From Chloroflexota bacterium (GTDB taxonomy: Bacteria > Chloroflexota > Limnocylindria > Limnocylindrales > CSP1-4), in contig PMIP01000060.1 in assembly GCA_003158295.1 (NCBI GenBank), forward strand, positions 5,342 through 39,470: a DNA stretch of 34,129 nucleotides, read 5' to 3'. This document shows positions 6,024 through 23,452 of the stretch, piece after piece; the stretch's first letter is position 1, and each line of letters opens with the position of its first letter. The notes under the pieces were generated by a model, which had not been told where the DNA came from, did no database searches, and saw nothing but the letters and a program-made list of their open reading frames with translations. The position numbers and the translations under genes were made by a program.

Positions 6024-6100
6024 TGGGGTGGCCTACGGGGGTCGAACCCGTAACCTGCGGATCCACAGTCCGCTGCTCTGCCGGTTGAGCTAAGGCCACC
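6024..6100 (-). tRNA. tRNA-His (anticodon GTG)
   Basis: A complete cloverleaf reads on the minus strand. The acceptor stem GTGGCCT pairs with AGGCCAC, preceded by an encoded extra G (6100, the G-1 unique to tRNA-His) that faces C73. The D arm is GCTC/GAGC, the anticodon arm GCGGA-CTGTGGA-TCCGC gives anticodon GTG, the variable loop is AGGTT, and the T arm is ACGGG-TTCGACC-CCCGT. CCA is encoded at 6026-6024. The 77-nt length is normal for tRNA-His with G-1 and CCA. Confidence 0.97.
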
Positions 6101-17568: not shown

Positions 17569-18099
17569 TCACGAGCCGGACGGGCCGCCGAGGTCGAAGG
17601 CGTAGGCGATCAGGTCGATCCCAGGTGCCGGCGAGAAGTCGAGATCGGGCAGGCGTTCGAATCCCATTCGTTCGTAGAGGTGGACCGCGGCCGGCATGAA
17701 CGCGCCGGTGTGCAGGACCAGTCGGAGGCGGCCGGCGGCACGGGCACGCTCCAGGCACCACTCCGTCAGGGCGTGTCCGATGCCCCGGCCCTGACGGGCA
17801 GGATCGACGGCCAGCATCCGAACGCCGGCTTCGCCTTCGCGCAGCTCCTCGGAGTACGGGTCGTCAGGGCCGGAGACGTACGTCACGCCACCGAGCAGCT
17901 CGCCGGCCGGGCCGACGGCCACGACCACGCACGACTTCCGTGCCCGCCCTGCCACGTCGCGCAACTGGAGGTCGTAGATCGTCTGGTGAGGCATCTCGGC
18001 CGGGATGGAGTGGTACGCGGCCACGGTCAGCTCGCCCAGGGCCTCGTACTCATCGGGGCGGATGGGGCGGATCAGGAACGAGGTCTCGGACGCGGCCAT
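17569..18099 (-). CDS. GNAT N-acetyltransferase
   Basis: 176 aa. Standard GNAT order: IRPIRPDEYEALGELT at the N-terminus, the substrate-side strand VVVAVGPAGELLGGVTYV, the acetyl-CoA loop VDPARQGRGIGHALTEWC (R-Q-G-R-G-I-G), and the C-terminal HLYERMGFERLPDLDF. The acetyl acceptor cannot be told. The ATG at 18099 is six bases after TACCCT, another leaderless arrangement. The gene is divergent from the deacetylase fusion, with 89 bases between the starts, and converges on the exporter with four bases between the stops. The shared gap may link its control with that of the acetylation gene beside it. Confidence 0.9.
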   Translation of the reverse strand: MAASETSFLIRPIRPDEYEALGELTVAAYHSIPAEMPHQTIYDLQLRDVAGRARKSCVVVAVGPAGELLGGVTYVSGPDDPYSEELREGEAGVRMLAVDPARQGRGIGHALTEWCLERARAAGRLRLVLHTGAFMPAAVHLYERMGFERLPDLDFSPAPGIDLIAYAFDLGGPSGS

Positions 18100-18188: not shown

Positions 18189-19976
18189 ATGGCAGATCGA
18201 ACGCACAGGGCTCGTCAAACGGACGCCCCGCTCCTGGTCTTCGGGCCTCGCTCTCCGACCTACGACTTCGGGCCCGGCCACCCGCTGAGCCCGCGACGCT
18301 TTGGGCCCGGTATGGACCTATTGCGAGCGGTTGGCGCCGAACCGGGGCTGGCCCCCGAACCGGCGGCGGACGCGGAGCTCGAATGGCTTCATGCGGCCAA
18401 GTACATAGCGGCCGTGCGATGCTTCGCGGCCGATCCGGGCGGCCCATCGCAGGCAGGCATCGGGCCGGGAGACGATCCGGCCTTCGCTGGGATGCACGAC
18501 GCGGCTGCCGCAGTGGCCGGCGGCTCGATCCGGGCCATGGAGGCGATCCTGCGCGGCGATGCGGAGCACGCGTTCCACCCCGGCGGTGGGCTCCACCATG
18601 CGATGAGGGAGCGGGCCAGCGGCTTCTGCGTCTACAACGACGTCGCCCTGGCGATCGCCCGAGCCCGCCGCGACGGCCTGCGCGTCCTGTATGTGGACCT
18701 GGACGTCCATCACGGCGACGGCGTCCAGGCGCTGCATGCCGCCGACCCCGGCGTGATGACCATCTCCGTCCACGAGTCGGGCCGGACCCTCTTCCCGGGG
18801 ACGGGCTTCGTCGATGAGCTGGGGGAGGGGATCGCCGCGGGGACCTGCGTGAACGTGCCGCTCGAGCCGCTCTCAGATCCGGAGGCCTGGCTGGCTGCGG
18901 TGCGGGGCGTGGTCCCGGCGCTGGCCGCCGCGTTCGGTCCGGACGTGATAGTCAGCCAGCACGGCGCCGACGGCCACGTCTGGGATCCGCTGGCGCATCT
19001 CTGCCTGACCACGACGGCGATGGGCGAGGCCGCGCGGCTCGTAGACCGGATCGCGCACCTCTATGCCGGCGGCCGGTGGCTTGCGACCGGAGGCGGCGGG
19101 TACGCGGTGTATCGGGTCGTGCCGCGGGCATGGGCTCTGACCTGGCTCGCGGCCGCGCACCGAGAGGCGCCGCGGCTGCTCCCCGAGGACTGGCGAGCGC
19201 GATGGGCCGGCGACGCCGCGCGCTGGGGCGACTCGCCACTGCCGACCGGCTTCGAGGACGACCCATACCTCCCGGCCGAGCGCGCGGTCAGTCCGGCCGC
19301 CGCCGAACGAAACGAGCGAACGGTATTGCAGGTTCGAACGGTCATGGTGCCGGCCCTGCTGCGCGCTGCCGAGCGCGAGGGTTGGTGGCGCTTCGACGAG
19401 GAGGGACGAGGGTCGTCGACGAGCGCCGCGCCGGCGGCAGAAGCGCCACCGGCCGTGACGGGAGGGGATCCGGCGATCGTCGCGCTCACGCCCCAGCTGC
19501 TGGATCGATTGACGCTCGTCTCGCGAACGATCGCCCCGGTCGACGCGGGCGATGGGCTGGCTCTCTTGCGGGCGGCTGTACGTGGCGGCGGCATCGCCAC
19601 GGGCGCGGTCACCGGGGAGTGGCTCGTTGGGGTGGCGCTCGTGAGGCCGCGTCCGCCCCACGGCGAGGATGAGCTCGTGGCCCTGGGCGTGGCTCCGTCG
19701 TCCCGTCGTCACGGCATCGCCACCGCCTTGTTGCGGGCGATCGTGGAGGAACAGGACCGCCGTGGCCGGGCGCTCGGGGTTCTCCACACCGCCGCGGATC
19801 GCGACCCGTTCGAGCCATTCCCAAGGGAGCTGCGCCGGGACGTGGCCGTGCGCCTCCTTCGTACCGGGGGCTTCGAGATGCGGCCCACGCCGCCTGAGGT
19901 GGCGGCTGCAGATCCCTACTCCCTGTCGGCCTGTCATTACGCTCCGGGCCCTCGGCCGGCCTCGCAGCAGAGGTAG
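18189..19976 (+). CDS. AcuC-like histone-deacetylase-family enzyme fused to a GNAT acetyltransferase
   Basis: 595 aa. Residues about 12-325 are a class I HDAC/AcuC domain with its whole active site: the His pair H136-H137 in PGGGLHHA, the zinc ligands D172 and H174 in YVDLDVHHGDG, the third ligand D261 in SQHGADGH, and the catalytic Tyr Y305 in GGGGY. A linker rich in Ser/Ala (about 405-425) leads to a GNAT domain (about 435-585) with VALGVAPSSRRHGIATALLRAI (R-R-x-G-I-A loop, 506-511). In Bacillus, separate AcuA (GNAT) and AcuC (deacetylase) control acetyl-CoA synthetase by lysine acetylation. Here both activities appear in one chain. The 110 residues from 325 to 435 do not match a domain I know. 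No acs gene is in the window, so the target is open. Confidence 0.92.
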   Translation: MADRTHRARQTDAPLLVFGPRSPTYDFGPGHPLSPRRFGPGMDLLRAVGAEPGLAPEPAADAELEWLHAAKYIAAVRCFAADPGGPSQAGIGPGDDPAFAGMHDAAAAVAGGSIRAMEAILRGDAEHAFHPGGGLHHAMRERASGFCVYNDVALAIARARRDGLRVLYVDLDVHHGDGVQALHAADPGVMTISVHESGRTLFPGTGFVDELGEGIAAGTCVNVPLEPLSDPEAWLAAVRGVVPALAAAFGPDVIVSQHGADGHVWDPLAHLCLTTTAMGEAARLVDRIAHLYAGGRWLATGGGGYAVYRVVPRAWALTWLAAAHREAPRLLPEDWRARWAGDAARWGDSPLPTGFEDDPYLPAERAVSPAAAERNERTVLQVRTVMVPALLRAAEREGWWRFDEEGRGSSTSAAPAAEAPPAVTGGDPAIVALTPQLLDRLTLVSRTIAPVDAGDGLALLRAAVRGGGIATGAVTGEWLVGVALVRPRPPHGEDELVALGVAPSSRRHGIATALLRAIVEEQDRRGRALGVLHTAADRDPFEPFPRELRRDVAVRLLRTGGFEMRPTPPEVAAADPYSLSACHYAPGPRPASQQR

Positions 19977-20181: not shown

Positions 20182-20694
20182 ATGGAACGCAGGGATCGCG
20201 GGATTTTCGTTCTTCGGGCAGTAGTCGGGCTTGGCTTCCTCTTTGCAGGCCTCGACAAGTTCTTCATGTGGGCGAGCGGTACGCCGTTCACGGCCGCAGG
20301 CTTCCTCAAGTTCGCCACGACCGGCGCGTGGCTGGGCAGCGACCCCAAGGCCGTCGTCAACCCGACGCACCCCTTGTGGGTTTCGCTGGCGGGCAACGCT
20401 TCACTGATGGGCGCCATCGACACGCTCGTGGTCTTCGGCGAGTGCGCGGTCGGCATCGCCCTGATCCTTGGCCTCGCGACTCGTTTCGCCGGCGTTGCCG
20501 GCGCCACGATGATGGGTCTGTTCTTCGTCGCCAACTGGAGCTTCGCGAACGGTCCGTTCAACGAGCAGCTCATGTACGGCCTGATCGCGGGCGTGGTCGC
20601 CTACGTCGGCGCCGGCGCCTACGCTCTTGACTCCGTCATCGAGAAGCTGGCCATCACGCAGAGGGTCCCGGTCGCCAAGTACGTACTCGGGTAG
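20182..20694 (+). CDS. DoxX-family membrane protein
   Basis: 170 aa, four predicted helices. VLRAVVGLGFLFAGLDKFFM is the typical first helix of DoxX proteins, and GECAVGIALILGLATRFAGVAGATMMGLFF the third/fourth pair. Family members include the small subunit of archaeal thiosulfate:quinone oxidoreductase and many proteins of unknown role in redox or oxidative-stress response. No oxidase partner is adjacent, so the gene appears to act alone; a strong terminator follows it 52 bases after the stop. Confidence 0.85.
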   Translation: MERRDRGIFVLRAVVGLGFLFAGLDKFFMWASGTPFTAAGFLKFATTGAWLGSDPKAVVNPTHPLWVSLAGNASLMGAIDTLVVFGECAVGIALILGLATRFAGVAGATMMGLFFVANWSFANGPFNEQLMYGLIAGVVAYVGAGAYALDSVIEKLAITQRVPVAKYVLG

Positions 20695-20854: not shown

Positions 20855-20929
20855 GTGCCCGGCGCAGGTGGGGCGTCACCATTTGCTGTTGCGACGCCGG
20901 CGCAACAATCCGATTGGACGATCGAATGA
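20855..20929 (+). CDS. Possible leaderless 24-residue leader ORF coupled to the FIST gene
   Basis: GTG 20855 opens 24 codons, starting VPGAGGASPFAV and ending QQSDWTIE, with TGA at 20927-20929. The stop overlaps the ATG of the FIST gene (20926-20928) as ATGA. The box TATGAT lies seven bases before the GTG. The peptide is not known to me. Together with the similar arrangement before the TauE-like gene this suggests a leaderless mini-ORF that feeds ribosomes to a start lacking its own site. Confidence 0.4.
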   Translation: MPGAGGASPFAVATPAQQSDWTIE

Positions 20930-22104
20930 TCGACCCGGCACCGCCACGAGTCCGCGCGGGCACCGGCATGAGTGGCTTGAAGGACGCATTCGAGGCGGGG
21001 AAAGCGGCAGCGACCGAGGCGATGGATCCTCTGGCAGGCGAGTCGCCCGCGCTGGTCATGGTCTTCGCGACCCCCAGGTACGACCTCCCGGCGCTCCTTG
21101 CCGGAGTCCGCTCGGTGACGGGCACGGCGCTCCTTGTCGGTTCGACCGGCTCCGGCGAGATCATCAAAGGGGAATACCTGGGGTTCGGCGGCGGCGTGGG
21201 TGTGCTTGCCATGACGTCCGGGCCCTACCGGTTCGCGGCCGCCTCGGCCGGCGAGATCAGTGGCGACCTCGATAAGGCCGGCCGGACCCTCGCACGAGCC
21301 AGTCGAGCCCAGGCCGGCAGCAGTCCCTATGCCGCGGCGCTGCTGATCACCGACTCGCTTCTCGGCGACCTGCAGCAATTCGTCCAGGGTGTCTACAGGA
21401 TCACCGGCCCCAAGGTGGCAATCGTTGGCGGCGCCGCGGGCGATGAGCAGCAGTTCGTCCAGTCTTCCATATTCCACGACGACGCCGTGCTTCACATGGG
21501 CGCCCTGGTTCTCTGGATCGCCAGCGACCGACCACTGAAAGTCGTCACTCGCCATGGCTGGGATCCGATCGGCGCGCCGTTGCTCGTGACCCGCGCCGAG
21601 GGCACGGAGATCGCCGAGCTCGGCGGACGCTCGGCGGCCGCAGTCTACGAGGACCAGCTGGGCCTGACTTCCACGCTGGCGCCCGAGGCGTTCTGGGCTA
21701 CGTCCATCCTGCATCCCTTCGGACTCCTGCAACCAGATGGCAGGCACGTCATTCGGGTCGCGCGCTCGAAGACCGAGCGCGGAACCCTGATGATTCATGG
21801 CTGCGTTCCATCGGTGGGAAGCGCGGTCCAGGTCATGGGTGGATCGGTCGACAGCCTGCTCGGCGTCACGGACGAGGTTGTTGATGACGCCCTCGACTCC
21901 CAACCCGACGCCGCGGTTCTGCTGACGTTCAGCTGCGCGGCACGGGCGATGATCTTCGGCGAGCGCGCGCCCGAAGAGGCGCGGCATCTCCAGGCCTCGG
22001 CGGGTGCAGTGCCGACGTTCGGGTTCTACTGCTGCGCGGAGTTCGCGCGAACGGCGGGCGTTCTGGGGACCCACAACGCCACTCTGACTGCCGTGGCCCT
22101 GTGA
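20926..22104 (+). CDS. FIST-domain sensory protein (FIST_N + FIST_C)
   Basis: 392 aa from ATG 20926; TTG 20914 would add four residues. The FIST_N domain (about 30-220) contains VGSTGSGEI, YAAALLITDSLLGD and VAIVGGAAGDE. FIST_C (about 225-390) contains VTRAEGTEIAELGGRSAAAVYE and the end signature GFYCCAEFARTAGV then THNATLTAVAL. FIST proteins are cytosolic sensors thought to bind small ligands such as amino acids and are usually encoded beside histidine kinases or cyclic-di-GMP enzymes. A GAF kinase starts 22 bases downstream, so this is likely its input protein. Two adjacent Cys (FYCCAEF) lie in the conserved end segment and could respond to redox state. Confidence 0.9.
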   Translation: MIDPAPPRVRAGTGMSGLKDAFEAGKAAATEAMDPLAGESPALVMVFATPRYDLPALLAGVRSVTGTALLVGSTGSGEIIKGEYLGFGGGVGVLAMTSGPYRFAAASAGEISGDLDKAGRTLARASRAQAGSSPYAAALLITDSLLGDLQQFVQGVYRITGPKVAIVGGAAGDEQQFVQSSIFHDDAVLHMGALVLWIASDRPLKVVTRHGWDPIGAPLLVTRAEGTEIAELGGRSAAAVYEDQLGLTSTLAPEAFWATSILHPFGLLQPDGRHVIRVARSKTERGTLMIHGCVPSVGSAVQVMGGSVDSLLGVTDEVVDDALDSQPDAAVLLTFSCAARAMIFGERAPEEARHLQASAGAVPTFGFYCCAEFARTAGVLGTHNATLTAVAL

Positions 22105-22126
22105 TTCGCGGCGGAGCGCCGGTCGA

Positions 22127-23452
22127 ATGAGGTACGGCGGACCCGAGCGGCGCCTCGCCCGCGACGCGGCCCTGGCGGAGTACCGGACGGCGATCCGCGA
22201 CACGACCCGTCTCAATCGGCTGTTTGCCATTCTGAGCGAGCCGGCGCCACTGGCGATCCTGGTAGACCGGGTCCTCCTCGCCCTTTCGGAGATGTTCGCG
22301 GCGGACATCGTGGCCCTCCTGCAGCCGTCAGGCGCAGGGGACCTCCTGCTGCTCGGCGCAATCGGGTTGCCGGAGGAGCTGGCCGGCCGGCCCATCTCCG
22401 GACTCGAGGATGGCTATGCGGCCGTCGCCATCAACGATCGAGGACCGGTCCTGGTCGAGAGCGCACTCGGCGACCCGAAGATCGATTCACAGTTCGCCGA
22501 GCTGGGGGTCGAGACGGCGACCTGGCTGCCGGTCCTGGGCAGCCAGGAGGTGCTGGGGGTGCTGGTCCTGGCCCGTTGTCAGCCTGTTCCGTTCACCCGC
22601 TCGGACGCCGACATGTTGATGGCGATGACGTACCGGATCGGGCTCGTTGTGGAGCGCGCCCGTGCGGACGAGGCCGGCAGGCGCCTGGATGCCCGGCTGC
22701 GCCAGGCGGAGAAGGTGGAGAGCCTGGGCCGGATGGCGGCGGCCATCGCCCACCATTTCAACAACAAGCTCACCGCAGTCATGGGATCCCTCGAGCTGGC
22801 GCTCGACGACCTGGCGGCGGGCCGGGACGTCCGGGTCGAGATCGCCAACGCGCAGGAGGCCACGCGCCAGGCGTCCACTGTCAGCCAGTTGATGCTCTCC
22901 TACCTCGGCCAGAGCTTCCAGGCTCGCGAGGTGCTGGACCTCGTTGCCACGTGCCGCGAAGCGCTCCCTGACGTGGTCCGGTCGCTGCCGCCGACGGTCC
23001 GGCTCCGGACCGAGTTCCCCGACGCCGCCCTGACCGTCCGGGCCAGCGAGGTGGAGATCCGACAGGTGCTCTCCAATCTCTTGCTCAACGCCGGAGAGGC
23101 GATCGATACCGGTGAAGGGAAGATCGTCCTTTCCATTCGCGAGGTGCCGGCGAGCCAGATCGTGCCTTCACCGCTCCTCTCGCCCGGCTGGACGCCGAAG
23201 GCGAGCTCCTACGCCTGCCTGGAGATCCTCGACAACGGATCCGGCATGGACGCCCAGCTGCTTGGGAATGCCTTCGACCCGTTCTTCACGACGAAGTTCA
23301 CCGGCCGGGGCCTGGGGCTGCCGGTGGTCCTTGGCGTGGTGCGAGCCCATCACGGAACCGTCACCGTGGACAGCGAGCCGGGCCGAGGGAGCACTTTCCG
23401 CGTCTTCCTGCCGTTGACGGTCTCGACGCCGGAGAATCGCAAGCCCGAATAG
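22127..23452 (+). CDS. GAF-domain histidine kinase (NtrB-like H box), partner of the FIST protein
   Basis: 441 aa, no membrane helix, so cytosolic. A GAF domain occupies about residues 35-180 (SEMFAADIVALLQ, GPVLVESALGDP, VLGVLVLARCQPVPF). A short coiled coil leads to the dimerisation helix KVESLGRMAAAIAHHFNNKLTAVMG, where H209/H210 precede FNNKL; most relatives read AHDFNN, so the Asp is replaced by a second His. The ATPase domain has NLLLNAGEAI, DNGSGMD, the F box AFDPFFTTK and GRGLGLPVVLGVVRAHHG. There is no receiver domain here or next to it, so the response partner is elsewhere. It forms an operon with the FIST gene. Confidence 0.92.
   Translation: MRYGGPERRLARDAALAEYRTAIRDTTRLNRLFAILSEPAPLAILVDRVLLALSEMFAADIVALLQPSGAGDLLLLGAIGLPEELAGRPISGLEDGYAAVAINDRGPVLVESALGDPKIDSQFAELGVETATWLPVLGSQEVLGVLVLARCQPVPFTRSDADMLMAMTYRIGLVVERARADEAGRRLDARLRQAEKVESLGRMAAAIAHHFNNKLTAVMGSLELALDDLAAGRDVRVEIANAQEATRQASTVSQLMLSYLGQSFQAREVLDLVATCREALPDVVRSLPPTVRLRTEFPDAALTVRASEVEIRQVLSNLLLNAGEAIDTGEGKIVLSIREVPASQIVPSPLLSPGWTPKASSYACLEILDNGSGMDAQLLGNAFDPFFTTKFTGRGLGLPVVLGVVRAHHGTVTVDSEPGRGSTFRVFLPLTVSTPENRKPE

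Follow-up and report, generated by a model that had tools for sequence, protein, structure and literature searches.

An AcuC-type deacetylase fused to a GNAT domain in Chloroflexota: a second half with a possible regulatory or docking role

In Bacillus, AcuC and AcuA are separate proteins that switch acetyl-CoA synthetase (AcsA). For B. subtilis AcuA, PMC11255334 identifies E102 as the general base, with both E102Q and E102A abolishing activity, and reports that W140A is almost inactive and W140F slow, and that these two variants still bind AcsA; in simulation, a salt bridge between R108 and D141 locks acetyl-CoA in place. Furthermore, AcuA inhibits AcsA even without E102 (PMC11910552). A fusion of the two enzymes is not reported among the matches listed in the open-licence literature, as far as the excerpts extend (including those of PMC11532494, PMC13039410, PMC8296664 and PMC13121692).

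Here, we describe such a fusion in a window of 34,129 nt, by which we mean the whole stretch of DNA analysed, from contig PMIP01000060.1 of Chloroflexota bacterium GCA_003158295.1 (a genome 85% complete). The gene, delimited by its ORF, translation, Pfam matches and orthologues, occupies 18189..19976 on the + strand as a single open frame of 595 codons. The initial annotation had read it as an AcuC-type deacetylase and a GNAT acetyltransferase in one polypeptide, and this was borne out: Pfam recognises Hist_deacetyl (PF00850) at residues 31-319 (E 3.3e-73) and Acetyltransf_1 at residues 473-537 (E 6.9e-7, exceeding the curated cut-off), the architecture is conserved by descent, and the full-length protein of 595 aa was modelled with a pLDDT of 91.0 and a pTM of 0.93. 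A frameshift or chimera is ruled out, as 45 of the 83 family loci read are fused; the sole apparent split, in genome G004, has undetermined bases at the break. The fusion of an AcuC-type deacetylase with a complete GNAT fold is real. Within the source genome, the fusion gene alone gave a Hist_deacetyl match, and the genus, searched across its 21 genomes, yielded no sirtuin.

The deacetylase domain (residues ~14-328; 18228..19172, + strand) was assigned by PF00850 and by its identity to AcuC, and is predicted, very likely, to be active. The six residues already named as its zinc site, H136, H137, D172, H174, D261 and Y305, were correctly placed and are conserved across an alignment of 59 rows (40 fused and 15 unfused members of the family plus four of another family), in which five of them are invariant and H174 is found in 58 rows, the remaining row having a gap. 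An annotated AcuC (NZ_CP015439.1, from an acsA-acuA-acuB-acuC locus) is 41% identical over residues 15-384, tail included, and an NCBIfam search at E 0.01 gave no family named for AcuA or AcuC. L268 aligns with the DPK/DPL position of HDAC6, which we take to be the site separating protein from polyamine deacetylases; it is Leu in 59 of 59 rows, and the gatekeeper Glu of acetylpolyamine amidohydrolases does not occur there.

The stretch between the domains, residues 325-435, had been described as unassigned and possibly a sensor or binding part. All 34 unfused relatives extend 61-74 aa past residue 328, the annotated AcuC can be aligned as far as residue 384, and the full-length model places helices at 333-345, 369-386 and 389-397; thus, the stretch consists of AcuC's own C-terminal tail (residues ~329-400; 19173..19388, + strand), a linker (residues ~401-425; 19389..19463, + strand) and the start of the GNAT domain, and a separate sensor domain is ruled out. 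The linker stands out by a dip in interdomain model confidence confined to about residues 401-420 (pLDDT block means of 74 for 401-410 and 55 for 411-420) and by fast evolution (median dN/dS of 0.64 for residues 399-425, 54 pairs).

The GNAT domain (residues ~426-595; 19464..19973, + strand) was delimited by modelling, Foldseek and alignments. Modelled alone, it forms a confident and complete fold (pLDDT 89.6), and in a Foldseek search of the PDB ranks 1 to 6 are all AcuA chains (2q04 and 9g7f_C; E 1.2e-9 to 1.3e-8, TMq 0.67-0.71), followed by 5dwn at a TMq of 0.58; together with the Acetyltransf_1 match, this upholds the GNAT fold that the initial annotation had assigned to the C-terminal part. 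Sequence comparison speaks less clearly. A GNAT profile made from 40 of the 45 fused proteins (G004, G018, G062, G110 and G120 were left out) matched 21 PDB sequences, the best being 2r7h, and AcuA came eighth and last (E 0.0012). Acetyltransf_1 was matched by 37 of the 40 rows at E 0.01. Aligned by hhalign to the AcuA part of the AcuC-AcuA fusions described below, the GNAT domains of the family scored 93.2% over 161 columns (global score 43.9), locally little above the 92.2% over 81 columns (global score 28.9) of an unrelated GNAT control. An AcuA profile (A3) found none in 177 genomes of the class at E 1e-8, in a search that had no known positive and with a profile that misses the fused GNATs. 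The fold thus points to AcuA, whereas sequence searches do not single AcuA out. The domain is under purifying selection, with a median dN/dS of 0.38 versus 0.11 for the deacetylase (66 pairs, 12 genus members).

What the GNAT half has kept and what it has lost was mapped by aligning the 40 domains with two annotated Bacillales AcuA and the AcuC-AcuA fusions in three MAFFT modes. The acetyl-CoA loop, previously called intact, is present as R506-x-x-G509-x-A511 and kept in the 40 aligned rows, with R in all 40, G in 39 and A or G again in all 40. Likewise, the position of AcuA R108 is Arg and that of D141 is Asp (D539 here) in every row and in all three modes. The position of the general base E102 is instead Gly (G500 here) and that of W140 is Arg (R538 here), each in 40 of 40, and at the position of H139 Glu (37 rows) or Asp (three rows, D537 here) is found. 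In hhalign, the WHWD segment comes out one residue away from its MAFFT position, whereby the D141 match is lost and the losses of E102 and W140 stand. Judged from these alignments, both residues that AcuA needs for catalysis are replaced in this lineage. The GNAT half is predicted, very likely, to bind a CoA ester. Residue 557, which we take to be the usual GNAT tyrosine position, is Leu in 30 rows, Phe in six, Ala in three and a gap in one.

To place the fusion among its relatives, the protein P0001 was used to search 177 genomes of the class, 109 of which matched at E 1e-40. The family of the source genome (f1) contributed 83 orthologous loci with most of the deacetylase domain: 45 fused (44 plus G004, split by an assembly gap), 34 unfused and four cut by contig ends. 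Outside this set stand G007 (where a contig starts with nothing more than a GNAT piece), G014 (whose fused gene is broken up over two contigs), G063b (a second, partly matched fused locus) and G107 (a match of <280 residues). The fused tails measure 219-292 aa after residue 328, except in G018 (134 aa, contig end) and G004 (9 aa, gap), and fused genes occur in 16 genera of the family. Identity to the G012 orthologue is 87-88%. Among GenBank MAGs named Chloroflexi bacterium, 10 of 12 loci span both domains, several of them being the same contigs as in the family set. Downstream of its fused gene, G063 carries what looks like a broken partial copy: a piece similar to the GNAT's C-terminal half (L097:7112-7657, + strand), within an ORF that has no Pfam match. 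On plasmids no fusion was seen: of the records matched, 142 in one search and 48 in another, none covers 80% of either query.

A tree of 92 deacetylase domains requires four changes of the fused/unfused label, and a single branch of 55 rows (SH-aLRT 97) takes in every one of the 45 fused rows along with nine unfused rows and one cut row. One clade of all fused rows without losses is not rejected (p-AU 0.072), and no remnant of a lost GNAT was detected downstream of 44 unfused genes at E <0.1. In a wider tree of 95 rows, the main branch of fused rows does not include G035, a fused row that sits in an open fork.

The initial annotation had also linked the fusion to acetyl-CoA synthetase and raised the matter of whether acs lies nearby in relatives, which holds for one part of the family only. 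In 11 of the 34 unfused loci acs follows directly downstream on the same strand, whereas none was found within the stretches read around the 45 fused loci, stretches that contig ends often shorten; nor does the window of 34,129 nt hold an acs. A search of 75 family genomes with TIGR02188 (E 1e-60) recovered Acs from 63, and all 12 genomes without it belong to the source genus (21 genomes). The fused gene is found in 10 of these 12, the source genome included, with G014 carrying the gene in pieces. As the 12 Acs-negative genomes are 73-95% complete, single absences mean little and the pattern more. Where Acs was examined, the motif PKTRSGK is kept in 37 of 37 rows (31 family genomes). The source genome has three AMP-binding matches, one of which carries PRGGTGK near its end, and this AMP-forming ligase is a possible target. 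As a side observation, the Acs of five genomes of the genus, G004, G009, G012, G018 and G020 (L239-L243), is 54-56% identical to that of G001, with the other family members examined reaching 66-82%, and so diverges as if replaced.

A phylum-wide search with P0001 for the same architecture (400 genomes, 113 matched at E 1e-60) found fusions in other families, and the notion that fusion is confined to one family was thereby overturned. From 40 chosen loci (L251-L290), 26 proved to be AcuC-AcuA fusions, two had the AcuA part in other frames and 12 were unfused. The 26 are spread over 23 genomes, 20 of family f21 and one each of f35, f55 and f67, and their AcuA part is all but whole (in G229, it runs into the contig end). 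Three genomes, G488, G473 and G251, have two such genes each among the fetched loci, and the two loci with the AcuA part broken into other frames, among 28 fused loci of the f21 type, are L261 (G478) and L265 (G463). The kinship to AcuA is plain here: an Anoxybacillus AcuA aligns almost end to end with the fusions (best E 4e-35, 36%), one f21 domain gave strong E-values in the PDB to AcuA only (2q04 6.6e-27, 9g7f_C 3.9e-23), and a profile of 23 fusion domains plus two Bacillales AcuA matched 9g7f_C at 2.8e-65. All six deacetylase residues as well as E102, R108, W138, H139, W140 and D141 are kept in 26 of 26. Searching out to about 4 kb from these fusions revealed no acs. In the 95-row tree, they and the f1 fusions form separate branches of the open fork. 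A further sample of 46 HDAC loci (30 best matches and 16 with long open frames), which missed AcuC-type genes, included none with a GNAT tail.

How, then, might the f1 protein work? We lean, with a little less than even confidence, towards a lysine deacetylase with a predicted acetyl-CoA-binding, AcuA-like domain in a regulatory or docking role. In this lineage the GNAT half would no longer work as AcuA does, but might bind the substrate, an acyl-CoA such as acetyl-CoA, or both, and the deacetylation of AMP-forming CoA ligases, perhaps of other proteins too, could in this way be tied to the acetyl-CoA supply. The self-contained acetylation switch suggested in the initial annotation is unsupported for this protein as a switch of Acs, since E102 and W140 are replaced (40 of 40) and no acs is nearby or found, yet it fits the AcuC-AcuA fusions elsewhere; these are the best candidates for such a switch, as both activities are likely kept there, to judge by their residues. 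The bolder statement that the writer half of the f1 lineage has become an acetyl-CoA-sensing, substrate-gripping domain of an eraser, and that AcuC-AcuA fusions act as single-chain switches in Chloroflexota, is a tentative one, which we regard as rather less likely than not.

The strongest competitor, which we regard as somewhat doubtful, is a bifunctional writer-eraser, in which the GNAT would be active with changed catalytic residues and the protein would both acetylate and deacetylate its targets. GNATs can use other catalytic residues, and the invariant (E/D)537-R538-D539 could serve, so that the domain may be active; the acetyl-CoA loop, the strictly kept acidic/Arg/Asp run after strand 5 and the purifying selection on the domain all agree with this, as do the relatives whose AcuC-AcuA fusions have intact residues, the PKTRSGK of the Acs rows and the PRGGTGK ligase of the source genome. 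It has to contend, however, with the replacement of both E102 and W140 in every row, with a presumed tyrosine position that holds Leu, Phe, Ala or a gap throughout, and with acs having been found neither in the stretches read around the 45 fused loci nor in the 10 genus genomes with the fused gene.

The neighbouring genes, which were counted by direct queries since antisense ORFs obscure clustering in DNA so rich in GC, offer another candidate writer. A stand-alone GNAT of 176 aa (17569..18099, - strand; Pfam and recurrence) is divergent from the fusion, as had been noticed before. It was found close to the gene in 23 loci, every one from a genome with a fused gene, and near none of the 34 unfused genes; seven of these loci have it upstream in the same orientation and not divergently. 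All 23 copies have Tyr142, which presumably occupies the place where GNATs usually carry their general acid. The stand-alone protein could thus be the acetyltransferase partner, the fused GNAT only anchoring partner or substrate, but we deem this improbable: the linkage is partly shared descent, the gene is absent from 23 of the 45 fused loci within the stretches read, and the NCBIfam models that it matches, all below cut-off, describe acetyltransferases acting on antibiotics, amino acids or protein N-termini. Also in the window, a DoxX/DoxD-like membrane protein (20182..20694, + strand; Pfam and recurrence) lies downstream of the fusion and recurs in 18 loci, 15 of them within the genus; a FIST-domain protein (NosP-like, below cut-off), followed by a GAF-histidine kinase, lies further along (20914-23452, + strand; Pfam/NCBIfam), a pair closely shared, among the loci read, by G012 only. 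A tRNA-His lies at 6024-6099 on the - strand.

Equally improbable is a small-molecule role, with both domains acting on polyamines or amino sugars, e.g. in an acetylation-deacetylation cycle: although, as we understand it, the HDAC fold also occurs in acetylpolyamine amidohydrolases and small amines are common GNAT substrates (compare PMC11532494), the 41% identity to an annotated AcuC, the Leu and not Glu at what we presume to be the gatekeeper site and the acs adjoining 11 of 34 unfused family genes speak against it.

Were the bolder statement on the f1 lineage true, deacetylase output would be set directly by acetyl-CoA. Known cases of reversible lysine acetylation on CoA ligases involve a writer and an eraser that are separate, and here a natural single-chain pair is at hand within one phylum. 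The intact fusions and the f1 lineage, with its ligand pocket apparently kept and its known catalytic residues lost, form a ready comparison for studying the balance between opposed activities and for asking if a bacterial deacetylase can be under direct control by acetyl-CoA.

Among known systems, AcuC of Bacillales shares with the present protein its zinc-site residues and its C-terminal tail, but is a single-domain protein beside acsA, whereas the present one carries a fused GNAT, and acs was found neither next to its gene nor elsewhere in the genome; the unfused AcuC of the same taxonomic family, an orthologous deacetylase with a tail of 61-74 aa, likewise does without the GNAT. AcuA (2q04; 9g7f chain C) is the closest GNAT fold in the PDB by Foldseek, and the equivalents of its R108 and D141 are kept here; the present domain differs by its weak sequence similarity, its fusion to a deacetylase and the replacement of E102 and W140. 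The AcuC-AcuA fusions of f21, f35, f55 and f67 have the same domain order and an intact AcuC-type deacetylase, but, unlike in the f1 GNAT, their AcuA part is unmistakable and retains all tested residues. In its logic, the architecture is also reminiscent of the two-way regulatory enzymes GlnE, AceK and Rel, which carry opposed activities in one chain; to our understanding, folds and chemistry are unrelated, and in the f1 protein the second of the two activities is a hypothetical one.
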